Shown in pieces: positions 8,587-16,053 of a stretch of DNA of 48,544 nucleotides (within the stretch, counting starts at the first letter, position 1; the number at the start of each line of letters is the position of its first letter). The notes beneath the pieces are model-generated. The model saw only the letters and a program-made list of their open reading frames with translations. It was not told the origin of the DNA and did not search any database. The stretch lies in assembly GCA_900316115.1 (NCBI GenBank), contig ONBN01000009.1, forward strand, positions 1 to 48,544, written 5' to 3'. The translations under genes and the position numbers were made by a program. This DNA is from an uncultured Eubacteriales bacterium (GTDB lineage Bacteria; Bacillota; Clostridia; Lachnospirales; Lachnospiraceae).

Positions 8587-8601
8587 CTGATGGAGGGCGG
8601 A

Positions 8602-9042
8602 TTGACTGATGAAATAAGGACTCGAATAGAGAGCGAGCTGGAAGTTAAAACTTATTTGCAGAATTTAAAATTTGCACTTAATAATGGAGCAAAGATAAAC
8701 TTTCAGGTCAAAAGATATGTGGACACGAACAGAGATGAAAGATATACAAACCAGTATACAGTAAATATGTTATTTCCAGATGAAAATCCGTTAGATGCAT
8801 TAAGAAGAGAATTATTAAAACTTTCTGTGGAAGATTATATGCGGACTGTAAAAGATATCCGTTTTCCTAAGAGAAGTGAGAAGCGGGAATTTGGAAAGAT
8901 TTACAATGATACAGAGGATGTATATATAAAAATACGGGTTGAGCTTTTGGGAATGTATGGGAGTATGACAACATTTATAATGTCTTTTCATTTTGCAGAA
9001 AAAGCATTTATTCCAGCGATGTTTCCATATAAAAAGCAATAG
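8602..9042 (+). CDS. MqsR-like toxin (predicted mRNA interferase)
   Basis: A 146-residue protein encoded first in a two-gene module. The C-terminal half follows the MqsR pattern: LKLSVEDYMRTVKDI, then FGKIYNDTEDVYIKIRVEL and SFHFAEKAFIPAMFPYK, comparable with the LS..D(Y/F), (E/Q)VY(I/L)KI.V and SFH/SFK stretches of MqsR toxins, which are RelE-fold ribonucleases that cleave mRNA. I place the start at the TTG at 8602, five bases after GGAGG; the ATG at 8590 overlaps that site. The gene is AT-rich compared with its neighbours, and the antitoxin starts nine bases later. The family call rests on pattern matching by eye and is moderate; an unrelated toxin fold is possible. Confidence 0.6.
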   Translation: MTDEIRTRIESELEVKTYLQNLKFALNNGAKINFQVKRYVDTNRDERYTNQYTVNMLFPDENPLDALRRELLKLSVEDYMRTVKDIRFPKRSEKREFGKIYNDTEDVYIKIRVELLGMYGSMTTFIMSFHFAEKAFIPAMFPYKKQ

Positions 9043-9051
9043 GAGGTTTTC

Positions 9052-10080
9052 ATGAATATGAAAATTATTAAAAGTGAAAAATGTCTGTGTGTATGCTGTA
9101 TGGAAATTCATGAAGTAAAGACAGTCCTTGTCAGAGAAAAGGTTACCTTTAAGCGGAGAAAAGTTGATTATGACGCACTTTATCAGTATTGTGATAATTC
9201 AGATGAATTATATATGGATGAACGACAGATACAGGAAAATGATATACGTCTTAAGAACGCATACAGAAAAAAAGAAGGACTTTTGACGTCGGATGAGATT
9301 TGTGCGATCAGAGCAAAATATAACATAAGCCAAAAAGATCTATGTACTTTGTTGGGCTGGGGTGGGAAGACCATTACACGTTATGAAAGCCATCAGGTTC
9401 AAGACAAAGCCCATGACACAATTTTAAAAAAGATAGATGAGGACCCGGAATGGTTTCTCATTTTGTTAAATGATGCAAGGGAATATTTATCAACAGAAGC
9501 ATATCAAAAGTATCTGGGTGTTGCAACTGCATTATATGAAGAAAATAGAGATGCATATTTAAGAAAGGCTATTGAAGCCAGTTATGCAAAATATCAGGGA
9601 AATCAGCTTTTACATGGCAATACGGAACTATCTTTGGACAAAGTAGTTGATATGATAAGATATTTTTCTGCATCAGAGGATGTTACAAATTTGTATAAAG
9701 TGAAATTAATGAAGCTTATGTGGTATGCAGATGCGTTGGCTTACAAAATACGGGGGAGTGCAATTACAGGGTTAGTATATCAGGCATTGCCAATGGGGGC
9801 AGTACCGGTAGGGCATAATTCCATCATCGACCTGAAAAACGTGCCATGTGAAGAAGTAGATATGGGAGAAACCAATGCATATCATTTTGTATTAAAAGGA
9901 AACCAGAGGTTTTTAGCGTTATCAGATGAAGAGAAGAATATTTTAGACATTGTTATACAAAAGTTAGGAAAGATGACAAAAAATGAAATTGTTGCATTTA
10001 TGCATAAGGAACAGGCATATATTATGACAGCATCCAGAGATGTGATTGAATTTAAGTATGCTGAATTTTTGCAAATATGA
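9052..10080 (+). CDS. MqsA-like HTH antitoxin with C-terminal Panacea (SocA/DUF4065) domain
   Basis: A 342-residue antitoxin with three parts. The N-terminus is a Cys-rich MqsA/YgiT-like segment (Cys11, 13, 15, 16 and 47), probably a degenerate zinc site. An Xre-type helix-turn-helix near residues 75-120 contains ISQKDLCTLLGWGGKTITRYE, closely resembling MqsA. The C-terminal half, about 205-330, with YKVKLMKLMWYADALAYK and TGLVYQALPMGAVP, matches the Panacea fold known from hyper-adaptable antitoxins (PanA). It should bind the toxin and repress the module through the palindrome at 8573. The start follows AGGAGG. Low G+C and isolation between terminators suggest acquisition by transfer. Confidence 0.8.
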   Translation: MNMKIIKSEKCLCVCCMEIHEVKTVLVREKVTFKRRKVDYDALYQYCDNSDELYMDERQIQENDIRLKNAYRKKEGLLTSDEICAIRAKYNISQKDLCTLLGWGGKTITRYESHQVQDKAHDTILKKIDEDPEWFLILLNDAREYLSTEAYQKYLGVATALYEENRDAYLRKAIEASYAKYQGNQLLHGNTELSLDKVVDMIRYFSASEDVTNLYKVKLMKLMWYADALAYKIRGSAITGLVYQALPMGAVPVGHNSIIDLKNVPCEEVDMGETNAYHFVLKGNQRFLALSDEEKNILDIVIQKLGKMTKNEIVAFMHKEQAYIMTASRDVIEFKYAEFLQI

Positions 10081-11835: not shown

Positions 11836-11902
11836 AGCACCTGTAAATGAGGCAACAGGAAAAATTAAATAAAGCGAATCAAGAAAGAGGAGAAAGATTA
11901 TC

Positions 11903-12760
11903 ATGAAGAAAAAAATCGCAGCAGTTTTAACAGCAGCAGTATTAGGAGCTACAGCATTTGCAGGTACAGTAAACGCAGCAAGCGGAGATATCACCGTTGT
12001 ATCCCGTGAGGATGGTTCCGGTACAAGAGGTGCATTTATCGAACTGTTCGGAATAGAAGAAAAACAGGGTGATGAGAAAGTAGATATGACTACTGAAGAA
12101 GCAAGCATCACAAACAGCACATCCGTTATGATGACAACAGTTGCTGGTGATGAGAATGCAATCGGATACATTTCCCTTGGATCCCTGGATGACACAGTAA
12201 AGGCAGTAAAGATCGATGGTGCAGAAGCCAGTGTAGAAAATGTATCTGACGGTTCTTACAAAGTATCCCGTCCATTCAACATTGTAACAGGTGATTCCGT
12301 AAGCGATGCAGCACAGGATTTCATTAACTACATTATGAGCGCTGACGGACAGCAGATCATTGAGGACAACGGATACATCAAAGTAGACGCAGAAGCAGCT
12401 GCTTATGAGAGCACATCTCCATCCGGAAAGGTTGTTGTAGCAGGATCTTCTTCTGTAACACCTGTAATGGAGAAACTGGCAGAGGCTTATCAGGAAGCTA
12501 ACAAAGACGTAACTGTAGAGGTACAGCAGAGCGATTCCACAACAGGTATTACATCTGCAAAAGAAGGTATCTGTGACATTGGTATGGCATCCCGTGATCT
12601 GAAAGATGAGGAAAAAGATGGTCTTACAGCACAGGAAATCGCAAGAGATGGTATCGCAGTAATCGTAAACAAAGACAATGATGTAGATGAGCTTACCAGC
12701 GATCAGGTAAAATCCATTTTCACAGGTGAGACAACTACCTGGGATGATCTGGCAAAATAA
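11903..12760 (+). CDS. pstS: Phosphate-binding protein PstS, circularly permuted, no lipobox
   Basis: A 285-residue secreted phosphate receptor for the Pst importer. A Sec signal peptide (about residues 1-26, ending VNAAS) lacks a lipobox cysteine. The two halves are in reverse order relative to standard PstS. The usual C-terminal half comes first, with SREDGSGTR (34-42), ENAIGYISLGS (84-94), SRPFNIVTG and DNGYIKV. The usual N-terminal half follows, with GSSSVTP (181-187), SDSTTGITSAKEG, MASRDL (228-233), DGIAVIVNKDN and IFTGETTTWDDL. Both sets of phosphate-binding residues are kept, so binding is likely. The break lies at the normal crossover between halves, which argues for a real permutation rather than an assembly error. 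Confidence 0.85.
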   Translation: MKKKIAAVLTAAVLGATAFAGTVNAASGDITVVSREDGSGTRGAFIELFGIEEKQGDEKVDMTTEEASITNSTSVMMTTVAGDENAIGYISLGSLDDTVKAVKIDGAEASVENVSDGSYKVSRPFNIVTGDSVSDAAQDFINYIMSADGQQIIEDNGYIKVDAEAAAYESTSPSGKVVVAGSSSVTPVMEKLAEAYQEANKDVTVEVQQSDSTTGITSAKEGICDIGMASRDLKDEEKDGLTAQEIARDGIAVIVNKDNDVDELTSDQVKSIFTGETTTWDDLAK

Positions 12761-12863: not shown

Positions 12864-13721
12864 ATGAATCGAATAAAAGAAAAAGGCATGAAGATCGTGT
12901 TTCTGATCGCAGCATGCACCTCTGTTCTGGCAGTACTTCTGATCTGTATTTTTCTGTTTGCAAATGGACTTCCAACCATTGCACAGATCGGACCTTTAAA
13001 GTTTCTGTTTGGACAGGAATGGAAACCTTCTAACAATAAATTCGGGATCCTTCCAATGATTGTTGCCAGCATTTATGTTACTGGTGGAGCAATTCTGGTA
13101 GGTGTTCCCATTGCAGTTTTTACCTCTGTATTTATGGCAAGATATTGCCCGAAATAAATCTATTGTGTTCTGAAATCAGGAATTGAACTGATGGCCGGGA
13201 TCCCATCTATTGTATATGGATTCTTTGGCCTGGTGTTGATCGTGCCACTGATCAGGGATGTATTTGGTGGACCTGGAGCCAGCATGCTGGCAGCTATCCT
13301 GCTTCTTGGAATCATGATACTTCCGACCATTGTAGGAGTGACAGAGGCAGCCATCCGGGGAGTACCGGAAAGCTATTATGAAGGTTCCCTTGCACTGGGA
13401 GCTACAAAAGAAAGAAGTATTTTTGCAGTTATGCTTCCGGCAGCAAAATCCGGAATCCTGGCAGGTATTGTACTGGGGATCGGCCGTGCTATCGGAGAGA
13501 CTATGGCAGTGGTTATGATCGCAGGAAACCAGCCCAGAATGCCAAAAGGACTGCTGAAAGGTGTCCGTACACTGACCATGAATATTGTAACAGATATGGG
13601 ATACGCAACCGGATTGCACAGGCAGGCATTGATCGCAACGGCTGTGGTATTGTTTGTATTTATTCTGATCATAAATCTGAGTCTTTCTCTGCTGAACAGG
13701 AGGAGTGAAAATGAAGGGTGA
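12864..13721 (+). pseudogene. pstC: Phosphate permease PstC interrupted by an in-frame stop
   Basis: One continuous reading frame encodes a PstC permease of about 285 codons, but codon 98 (13155-13157) is TAA. Before it come the first membrane helix and MARYCPK; directly after it the frame continues IYCVLKSGIELMAGIPSIVYGFFG, the expected next residues of PstC, and runs to the normal C-terminus with the EGSLALGATK and GRAIGETMAV motifs. In relatives the missing position is normally Lys, so a single AAA to TAA change explains it. The second part could restart at the ATG at 13191, but its ribosome site is weak. The rest of the operon is intact. A sequencing error or stop readthrough remains possible. 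Confidence 0.85.
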
Positions 13722-14595
13722 TGCAGCAATGACGATGGAAGGTTCTGTCGCTTATACAGGGACAAAGACGGCAAAACCCAAATATATTGGATCAAAAATC
13801 CTGAAATTTCTGACGATCCTGGCAGCAGGTATAACCTTTGCAGTGTTACTGTTTCTGATCGCATATATACTGGTAAAAGGGGTTCCATATCTGAATAAAG
13901 ATCTGTTTTCCCTTACCTATACATCGGATAATGTTTCACTTGTTCCGGCCCTGATCAATACCTTTATCATGACGATCGTATCACTGGCAATTGCTGCTCC
14001 TCTGGGTATTTTTGCGGCAATCTATCTGGTGGAATATGCAAAAAAAGGAAGCCGTCTTGTGAATGTGATCCGTATTACGGCAGAGACACTTTCCGGTATT
14101 CCTTCTATTGTATTTGGTCTGTTTGGGATGCTGTTTTTTGTAACTGCCCTGAAGTGGAAAATGTCCCTTCTTGCAGGTGCATTTACGATGGTGATCATGA
14201 TTCTCCCGCTGATCATGCGTACTTCAGAGGAAGCCTTAAAATCAGTTCCGGACTCCTACCGGGAAGCCAGTTTTGGCCTTGGTGCAGGAAAGCTACGGAC
14301 GATTTTTACCATTGTGCTTCCTTCAGCAGTTCCAGGAATCCTGGCAGGAGTGATCCTGGCAGTAGGAAGAGTAGTGGGTGAAACAGCAGCGCTGATCTAT
14401 ACCTCCGGTACACTTCCGAAAGTTCCTGACAGTCTGATGGGCTCCGGACGTACCCTGGCTCTTCATATGTATGTTCTTTCCTGCGAAGGTCTGCATATGA
14501 ACCAGGCAGCGGCAACGGCTGTGATCATTCTGTTATTTGTAATGCTTATTAACTGGCTGTCCGGCCGTGTGGCAAAAAGGATAGCGAAAGGATAA
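13711..14595 (+). CDS. pstA: Phosphate ABC transporter permease PstA
   Basis: A 294-residue membrane permease with about six helices. The family motifs are [19 protein letters not shown] near residue 128, and [21 protein letters not shown] plus [15 protein letters not shown], the coupling region that contacts PstB. The start ATG at 13711 has AGGAGGA six bases upstream and overlaps the end of pstC. The N-terminal 30 residues before the first helix are polar. It pairs with PstC to form the phosphate channel; with pstC broken, transport may be impaired. Confidence 0.92.
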
Positions 14596-14599
14596 TTTT

Positions 14600-15358
14600 A
14601 TGAGTGAAAAAACAAAAATCCGGATCAGTAATATGGATCTGCATTATGGTAATTTCCATGCATTAAAGAACATTAATATGGAGATACCGGAGAAAAAAAT
14701 AACTGCATTTATCGGCCCCAGTGGCTGTGGAAAATCTACATTATTAAAGTCTTTAAACAGGATGAATGACCTGGTAGAAGGGTGTAAGATCACCGGAAAA
14801 GTAGAACTGGATGGACAGGATATTTACGGGGATATGGATGTAAATATGCTGCGTAAAAGAGTAGGTATGGTTTTCCAGAAACCCAATCCTTTTCCTATGA
14901 GTATTTACGATAATATTGCCTATGGACCAAGAACCCATGGGATCCGTTCAAAGGCAAAGCTGGATGAAATCGTGGAGAAATCCCTGCGTGATGCAGCAAT
15001 CTGGGAAGAGGTTAAGGACAGACTGAAAAAGAGCGCACTGGGTATGTCCGGTGGTCAGCAGCAGCGTCTTTGCATTGCAAGAGCACTGGCAGTACAGCCG
15101 GAGGTGCTTCTTATGGATGAGCCTACTTCTGCACTGGATCCGATCTCTACCTCAAGGATCGAAGAACTGGCAATGGAATTTAAGAAGGATTATACCATTG
15201 TGATCGTTACACATAATATGCAGCAGGCAACCAGAATTTCCGATAAAACCGGATTCTTCTTACTGGGCGAAGTGGTAGAGTTTGCAGATACGCAGAAATT
15301 GTTCTCCATGCCTCAGGATAAGAGAACAGAGGACTATATTACAGGAAGGTTTGGTTAA
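14600..15358 (+). CDS. pstB: Phosphate ABC transporter ATPase PstB
   Basis: A 252-residue ATPase of the phosphate importer, of normal length. Walker A is GPSGCGKST (39-47), the signature is [15 protein letters not shown], and Walker B is [14 protein letters not shown]. The PstB-specific stretch [24 protein letters not shown] and the C-terminal EDYITGRFG are present. It starts five bases after the pstA stop codon. Confidence 0.95.
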
Positions 15359-15363
15359 AGATT

Positions 15364-16053
15364 ATGGGAACGCATTTTGAAAGAAAGCTGGAAGAATTGC
15401 ATGCACAGATGATCGCAATAGGAAATCTGTGCGAACAGGCGATTACTCTTTCCGCAGAAGCTGTTCGTGGAGGCGGGGATCAGGTCGTCCGTCAGGTATT
15501 TGAAACGGATCGGGATATTGATGCAAAAGAGCGTGAGATTGAAGGACAATGCATGAAACTGCTGCTTCTTCAGCAACCGGTTGCCGGAGATCTTCGGCGA
15601 ATCTCAGCTGCACTTCGTATGGTGGCAGATATGGAAAGAATCGGAGATCAGGCTGCAGATATTGCAGATCTGGCGCTTCATATGGATACTGCAGCAGTAA
15701 AGGTGTCCGCAGATATTGCAGGAATCGCAGATGCTACGGTACATATGGTTCAGGGAAGCATTGAAGCTTTTGTGGACATGGATCTTAAAAAGAGCAGATA
15801 TGTGATCGACAGTGATGACATTGTGGACAATGCCTTTAATGAGATCAAGGAAAACCTGGCAGACCAGATTTATGGTAAAAAGCTGGATGCACGAACAGGC
15901 CTGGATATCCTTATGACTGCAAAATATTTTGAAAGAATTGGTGATCATGCCGTGAATATTGCTGAATGGGTGGAGTTTGCCATTACAGGAGAGCACAGGA
16001 ATAACGAGCATGAGTATGATTTTGAAAAAGAGATGGCTGCTTTTATGAAATAA
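15364..16053 (+). CDS. phoU: Phosphate-signalling protein PhoU
   Basis: A 229-residue helical protein with two PhoU repeats, each holding the conserved metal-binding pattern: MVADMERIGDQAADIADLAL near residue 83 and AKYFERIGDHAVNIAEWVEF near 190. PhoU damps Pst transport and signals to the PhoR kinase when phosphate is plentiful. It starts five bases after pstB. An intact phoU behind a damaged pstC is odd, since loss of PhoU control is normally harmful only when Pst is active. Confidence 0.95.
   Translation: MGTHFERKLEELHAQMIAIGNLCEQAITLSAEAVRGGGDQVVRQVFETDRDIDAKEREIEGQCMKLLLLQQPVAGDLRRISAALRMVADMERIGDQAADIADLALHMDTAAVKVSADIAGIADATVHMVQGSIEAFVDMDLKKSRYVIDSDDIVDNAFNEIKENLADQIYGKKLDARTGLDILMTAKYFERIGDHAVNIAEWVEFAITGEHRNNEHEYDFEKEMAAFMK

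Follow-up and report, generated by a model that had tools for sequence, protein, structure and literature searches.

Circularly permuted PstS in a Lachnospiraceae genome: fold, relatives and possible origin

Can the two halves of a phosphate-binding protein exchange places in the chain and still make up a phosphate receptor, and how would such a protein arise? The question is raised by pstS in an uncultured Eubacteriales bacterium of the Lachnospiraceae (assembly GCA_900316115.1, contig ONBN01000009.1), from which we analyzed one stretch of 48,544 nucleotides, hereafter the window. The gene (11903..12760, +) is an uninterrupted open reading frame (ORF) of 285 residues, with an ATG start and a ribosome-binding-site-like GAGGAG (11887..11892, +) ten bases 5' of it. 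Based on this ORF, its matches to solved structures and a predicted fold, we consider it very probable that the window protein serves a Pst ATP-binding cassette (ABC) importer as its phosphate receptor and has the same circularly permuted form as PstS2 of Streptococcus pneumoniae.

Order of the halves, fold and phosphate pocket

The segments of the window protein run in the order signal peptide, SREDGSGTR, ENAIGY, GYI, linker, GSSSV, SRDL and TTWDDL. In a search of solved structures, canonical PstS chains were each matched in two stretches, in swapped order and far above chance. For example, residues 175–283 match residues 4–113 of the canonical Clostridium perfringens PstS (PDB 4q8r; domain independent E-value 4.9e-27), and residues 28–161 match its residues 118–245 (3.4e-26), while the match to S. 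pneumoniae TIGR4 PstS2 (SP_2084, PDB 4h1x chain A) is single and collinear (residues 24–283 on chain residues 5–264, E 1.9e-75). The initial annotation, which had placed the two halves in reverse order behind one signal peptide, is therefore borne out: both halves align to 4q8r in swapped and not in normal order, and one signal peptide is recognizable in the sequence at residues 1–25 (11903..11977, +). The ancestral C-terminal segment (residues 28–161; 11984..12385, +) comprises most of lobe II with SREDGSGTR, followed by the second lobe-I part. The ancestral N-terminal segment (residues 175–285; 12425..12757, +), to which the N-terminal half of the canonical relative L040 also maps, contributes the first part of lobe I, where GSSSV and SRDL lie, the hinge strand (~242–256) and the first part of lobe II. 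Between them, a new linker joins the old C- and N-termini within lobe I (residues 162–174; 12386..12424, +); it is unaligned between the two matches, has neither helix nor strand in the model, and is variable among relatives. The canonical connection (4q8r residues 114–117) is absent, and the new cut sits there.

It could be argued that two ordinary pstS fragments were joined in the wrong order by assembly or gene prediction, and the adjoining pstC is indeed interrupted, so the assembly may contain errors. However, a Blautia glucerasea contig (locus L002) encodes the same protein in the same order at 98% identity, its DNA being 92.8% identical across ~4 kb, which argues against an assembly artefact. 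In addition, the C-N order occurs in 37 of 64 related loci of the genome_contigs set (N-C in 26, N-C-N-C in one), and 4h1x is a crystal structure. We leave the artefact hardly any chance; it is ruled out by the other genomes and the solved structure, and the permutation is confirmed as real.

The predicted model has the two-lobe PstS (type II substrate-binding protein) fold, with values of the predicted local distance difference test (pLDDT) below 50 for residues 1–25 and a long strand, 242–256, as the hinge; the protein is confidently modelled as a permuted PstS. Lobe limits, including the return crossover strand 122–129, were assigned by homology to published domain limits and not from model coordinates. 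On this basis lobe II comprises residues ~28–121 and ~250–285 and lobe I is one piece (~122–249), so that the new termini fall inside lobe II and the join inside lobe I. The initial annotation had put the join at the natural crossover between the lobes, which does not hold, since the halves that changed places do not correspond to the lobes: the junction of the old ends (~162–174) is internal to lobe I, and the chain is cut in a loop of lobe II. The permutation adds no crossover; it alters which lobe is continuous and which bears the N-terminus. For comparison, passages of PMC5439949 give PhoX a continuous domain II (101–251), a split domain I and a 16-residue hinge strand (93–108), and a passage of PMC12421899 describes a similar domain layout for C. 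perfringens PstS.

The pocket appears to be kept as well. R35 is aligned to Arg125 of 4Q8R, which a passage of PMC12421899 names as a ligand of phosphate, and R35/G40/T41 and S184/S212/S230 are spaced as Arg159/Gly164/Thr165 and Ser34/Ser62/Asp80 are in PhoX (passages of PMC5439949), PhoX Asn201 lying outside the mapped positions. As had been claimed from the motifs, the binding segments are all retained: these six residues are invariant across 36 permuted sequences, i.e., the window protein and the permuted genome_contigs loci except L005 and L015 (35 of 37). The position of PhoX Asp80 is a serine here, but this is not due to the permutation, because the canonical-order 4q8r has the same GMASRD motif. 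The chain would thus start in lobe II, pass into lobe I, run through the old C-terminus, linker and old N-terminus, all within lobe I, and return through the hinge strand to end in lobe II. Given that crossovers and pocket are kept, phosphate would be expected to be trapped between the lobes and handed to PstC/PstA as usual.

The closest solved relative, S. pneumoniae PstS2, shares permuted order, breakpoint and fold (257/257 residues aligned structurally with 50% identity, root-mean-square deviation 1.2), although its host has two Pst systems according to passages of PMC4913102, whereas only one PstS was found here. C. perfringens PstS (4q8r/4gd5) is alike in its pocket motifs and in matching both halves (45% identity over the aligned half), but has the canonical N-to-C order, with lobe II continuous and lobe I split. 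Treponema pallidum TpMglB-2 differs in being a type I sugar-binding protein, the permutation of which, in passages of PMC4990184, needs a fourth crossover near the hinge; none is added in the window protein. Bacillus subtilis OpuAC (2b4m, 2b4l, 5nxx, 3chg) also differs, as it has 10–13% identity and binds betaines, and sequential matches of similar size were obtained with other type II binding proteins.

The supposition that known PstS proteins have the other order must be dropped, since S. pneumoniae PstS2 (4h1x, released in 2012) is collinear with the window protein and permuted PstS is common in its family. Permuted PstS is therefore a known kind of protein, in that a solved structure exists, yet seemingly an undescribed one. 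A literature search found no paper for PDB 4H1X, and permuted PstS is unreported in the papers found, a weak negative given that subscription journals lay mostly outside the search; no word starting with "permut" occurs in the passages of PMC4913102, PMC12096839, PMC12421899 and PMC5439949. The title of PDB 9l8j, the phosphate-binding protein Sll0540 of Synechocystis, speaks of an "evolutionary hotspot" and may bear on PstS rearrangements, and its paper was likewise not found.

Distribution and origin of the permuted form

Among 150 genomes of the window's family, 97 have a match at E ≤ 1e-10, and among the matches listed at least 50 genomes, the window's own included, have a single stretch spanning both halves (counted by hand), the other 47 having half-length stretches only. 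The same order is therefore found repeatedly in Lachnospiraceae, and was confirmed on the DNA for 30 of the 50 (L001, L066–L094). Two of the 50 (G146 and G051) carry a stop; additional matches within the 50 comprise canonical half matches in G087, one partial match in G038 and two unlisted ones in G093. Seven genomes (G021, G026, G036, G050, G074, G077 and G124) have two permuted matches each, those of G077 lying on the same strand ~220 bases apart. At E ≤ 1e-28, a limit that hides canonical PstS, 14 of the 398 genomes covered in the phylum are permuted (the window's included) and two have fused tandems. In the family of an Anaerolineaceae locus, 42 of 61 genomes match at E ≤ 1e-12, with two permuted and two fused tandem forms. 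Permuted PstS forms a widespread clade, of which the window protein is one member and not a unique case.

Permuted homologues are also present on a Treponema saccharophilum plasmid record (61%) and in an Eggerthellaceae metagenome bin, which suggests horizontal transfer, although bins can be contaminated. Single-piece matches occur on a Monoglobus plasmid record and in five unannotated fecal records labelled "Bacteriophage sp.", which may be of bacterial or viral origin.

To place these proteins, trees were built on sequences with the permuted halves rearranged into canonical order. In a 127-row tree the permuted label changes 2 times, vs. 37.6 in shuffles. A 72-row tree, for which 29 of 83 permuted and 35 of 48 canonical rows were used, places 28 of the 29 permuted rows together with the canonical L041 behind one branch (support 99/98), and 4h1x and L001 both lie behind that branch. 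In a 79-row tree (35 of 81 permuted rows, L111 and L118 left out), all 35 permuted rows and L041 are on one side of a branch (support 98.9), and constraining the permuted rows alone together gave a P value of the approximately unbiased test (p-AU) of 0.688 and a likelihood exceeding that of the initial free search. Two rows weigh against a simple single origin. The permuted L109, on a long branch (1.9–2.7), falls outside the clade in the 127- and 72-row trees and inside it in the 79-row tree, while L041, in canonical order, falls within the permuted clade. Forcing L041 outside is not rejected (p-AU 0.312), nor is forcing all permuted rows of the 72-row tree together without it (p-AU 0.139). 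L041 (2833–3705) is a canonical-order PstS whose halves are both best matched by permuted proteins, and may be a pre-permutation sister or a reversal; L109 is a divergent permuted PstS and possibly a second permutation.

Analogues of an intermediate stage exist in nature. Fused tandem PstS (N-C-N-C in one frame, 531–587 residues) was found in four genomes (G460, G503, G552 and G556); the tandem loci (L038, which is that of G552, L107, L108 and L146) belong to an Anaerolineaceae bin, another genome from that family set and two genomes of Bacillota. The copies of L038 are 79% identical to each other. These proteins resemble the permuted form in repeating PstS halves in one frame and in their internal C1-N2 stretch, which runs in permuted order, but they differ in consisting of two complete canonical copies. 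In the 72-row tree the copies pair within their own lineages in three separate places, none in the permuted clade, which implies three separate in-frame duplications. The first step of duplication and trimming thus happens, without ancestry being implied: lying outside the permuted clade, the tandems are analogues of an intermediate and not the intermediate itself, and direct descent of the clade from them is unsupported.

If the same loop had been permuted independently at least twice, in the main clade and in L109, the position of L109 outside the clade in two trees would be explained, and the tandem fusions in three tree places indicate that the first step recurs. However, L109 is a single long-branched row, which the 79-row tree groups with the permuted rows (a 36-row group) and which can be forced in without rejection, and we regard independent permutations as unlikely. 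A single origin by duplication and trimming is most likely, in which pstS would have been duplicated once in frame and in tandem, the first N-half and the last C-half would have been lost, and the permuted gene would then have been passed on, together with the permease genes belonging to it, both vertically and by horizontal transfer.

The permease has a similar history. Among 118 PstC rows the permuted label changes 2 times, vs. 34.3 in shuffles, and among 65 rows one branch separates the two groups (support 89). The latter set contains 29 of 77 permuted rows; it was chosen without L109, L024 and L101 (long-branched in the 118-row set), and L042, L060, L111, L121 and L123 were left out. Five loci had no PstC match. 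Since this split is nearly the same as that of PstS, permuted PstS and its permease largely share their history. Contact with the permease might be altered, as the initial annotation proposed; what the trees show is that permuted PstS and a PstC lineage of its own tend to occur together.

Operon context and membrane anchor

The permuted pstS heads an operon that continues with pstC (12864..13721, +), pstA (13705..14595, +; TIGR00974 270.5 bits, cut-off 193.45), pstB (14600..15358, +; TIGR00972 420.2 bits, the only one of 129 matches in the genome above the family cut-off) and phoU (15364..16053, +; TIGR02135 189.6 bits, cut-off 130.25). The genome (91.46% complete) has a single PstS match at E ≤ 1. 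With the canonical query L040 at E ≤ 1e-8, no canonical PstS was found beside the permuted one in six genomes (those of the window, L002, L009, L011, L020 and L036, with completeness given for the window's only); in each, the query matched the permuted gene as two neighbouring halves. What weighs against a working importer is that pstC is split by an in-frame TAA (13155–13157) in a genome with one Pst system found, while its frame is uninterrupted in B. glucerasea L002; phosphate transport may have been lost in the window strain, or the stop base may be an assembly error.

The signal peptide, judged by eye, lacks a lipobox cysteine and has a signal-peptidase-I-like end (VNA|AS). A motif scan found no lipobox cysteine in the window protein or in any of the 15 rows of its Blautia-containing clade (L001–L014, L035). 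This clade supplies 15 of the 18 permuted proteins scored without a lipobox among 80 (62 have one), vs. none of 40 canonical proteins in the same scan, a contrast that is suggestive only, because the scan applies a motif rule in place of a trained predictor and the proteins scored are related to one another (L143 and L144 were left out). On the permuted part of the tree the lipobox label changes 4 times, and L026, scored positive, is ambiguous. Permuted PstS of the Blautia clade has almost no spacer ahead of the first strand. In this clade the lipobox would have been lost later, leaving the protein either secreted in free form or retained by a signal peptide that is not cleaved.

Together with the interrupted pstC, the absent lipobox might suggest that the permuted protein senses or scavenges phosphate without being coupled to the adjacent permease, having been released from the membrane in Blautia. 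We find this quite improbable, as the protein is the only PstS match in its genome and is encoded first in the operon, most permuted homologues have a lipobox, the B. glucerasea pstC is intact, and PstC clusters with permuted PstS.

Elsewhere in the window, a protein encoded at 9052–10080 has, besides a SocA-like Panacea domain, a match to the MqsA antitoxin that stays below threshold; it adjoins a short ORF (8590–9042), and the two are possibly a toxin-antitoxin pair.

Implications for phosphate transport in Lachnospiraceae

As a tentative and, taken whole, rather doubtful extension of the receptor reading, PstS permutation might be a traceable natural case of duplication and trimming: tandems survive in at least three lineages, in many Lachnospiraceae the permuted clade displaced the canonical protein, L109 could represent a second permutation and L041 a return to canonical order, and the move of the N-terminus to lobe II altered anchoring, letting Blautia lose the lipid anchor. 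In the scanned set, loss of the lipid anchor was seen only among permuted proteins.

The NCBIfam model TIGR02136 matches the window protein in two stretches totalling 195.8 bits, below its cut-off of 206.6, vs. 247.2 bits in one stretch for the canonical L040, while Pfam PF12849 scores 141.3 bits (cut-off 27) in two stretches. Two plasmid records label permuted PstS merely as "substrate-binding domain-containing protein". Given the sub-threshold score and this naming, annotation may miss part of the phosphate transport of gut Lachnospiraceae. Further, since the canonical, the fused-tandem and the permuted form of PstS are all found side by side in nature, a direct test of the origin of the permutation is possible, and the coexisting forms also let one ask if the anchor point of a binding protein affects delivery to its permease. 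Permuted PstS is therefore a clear natural system for studying the origins of permutation.
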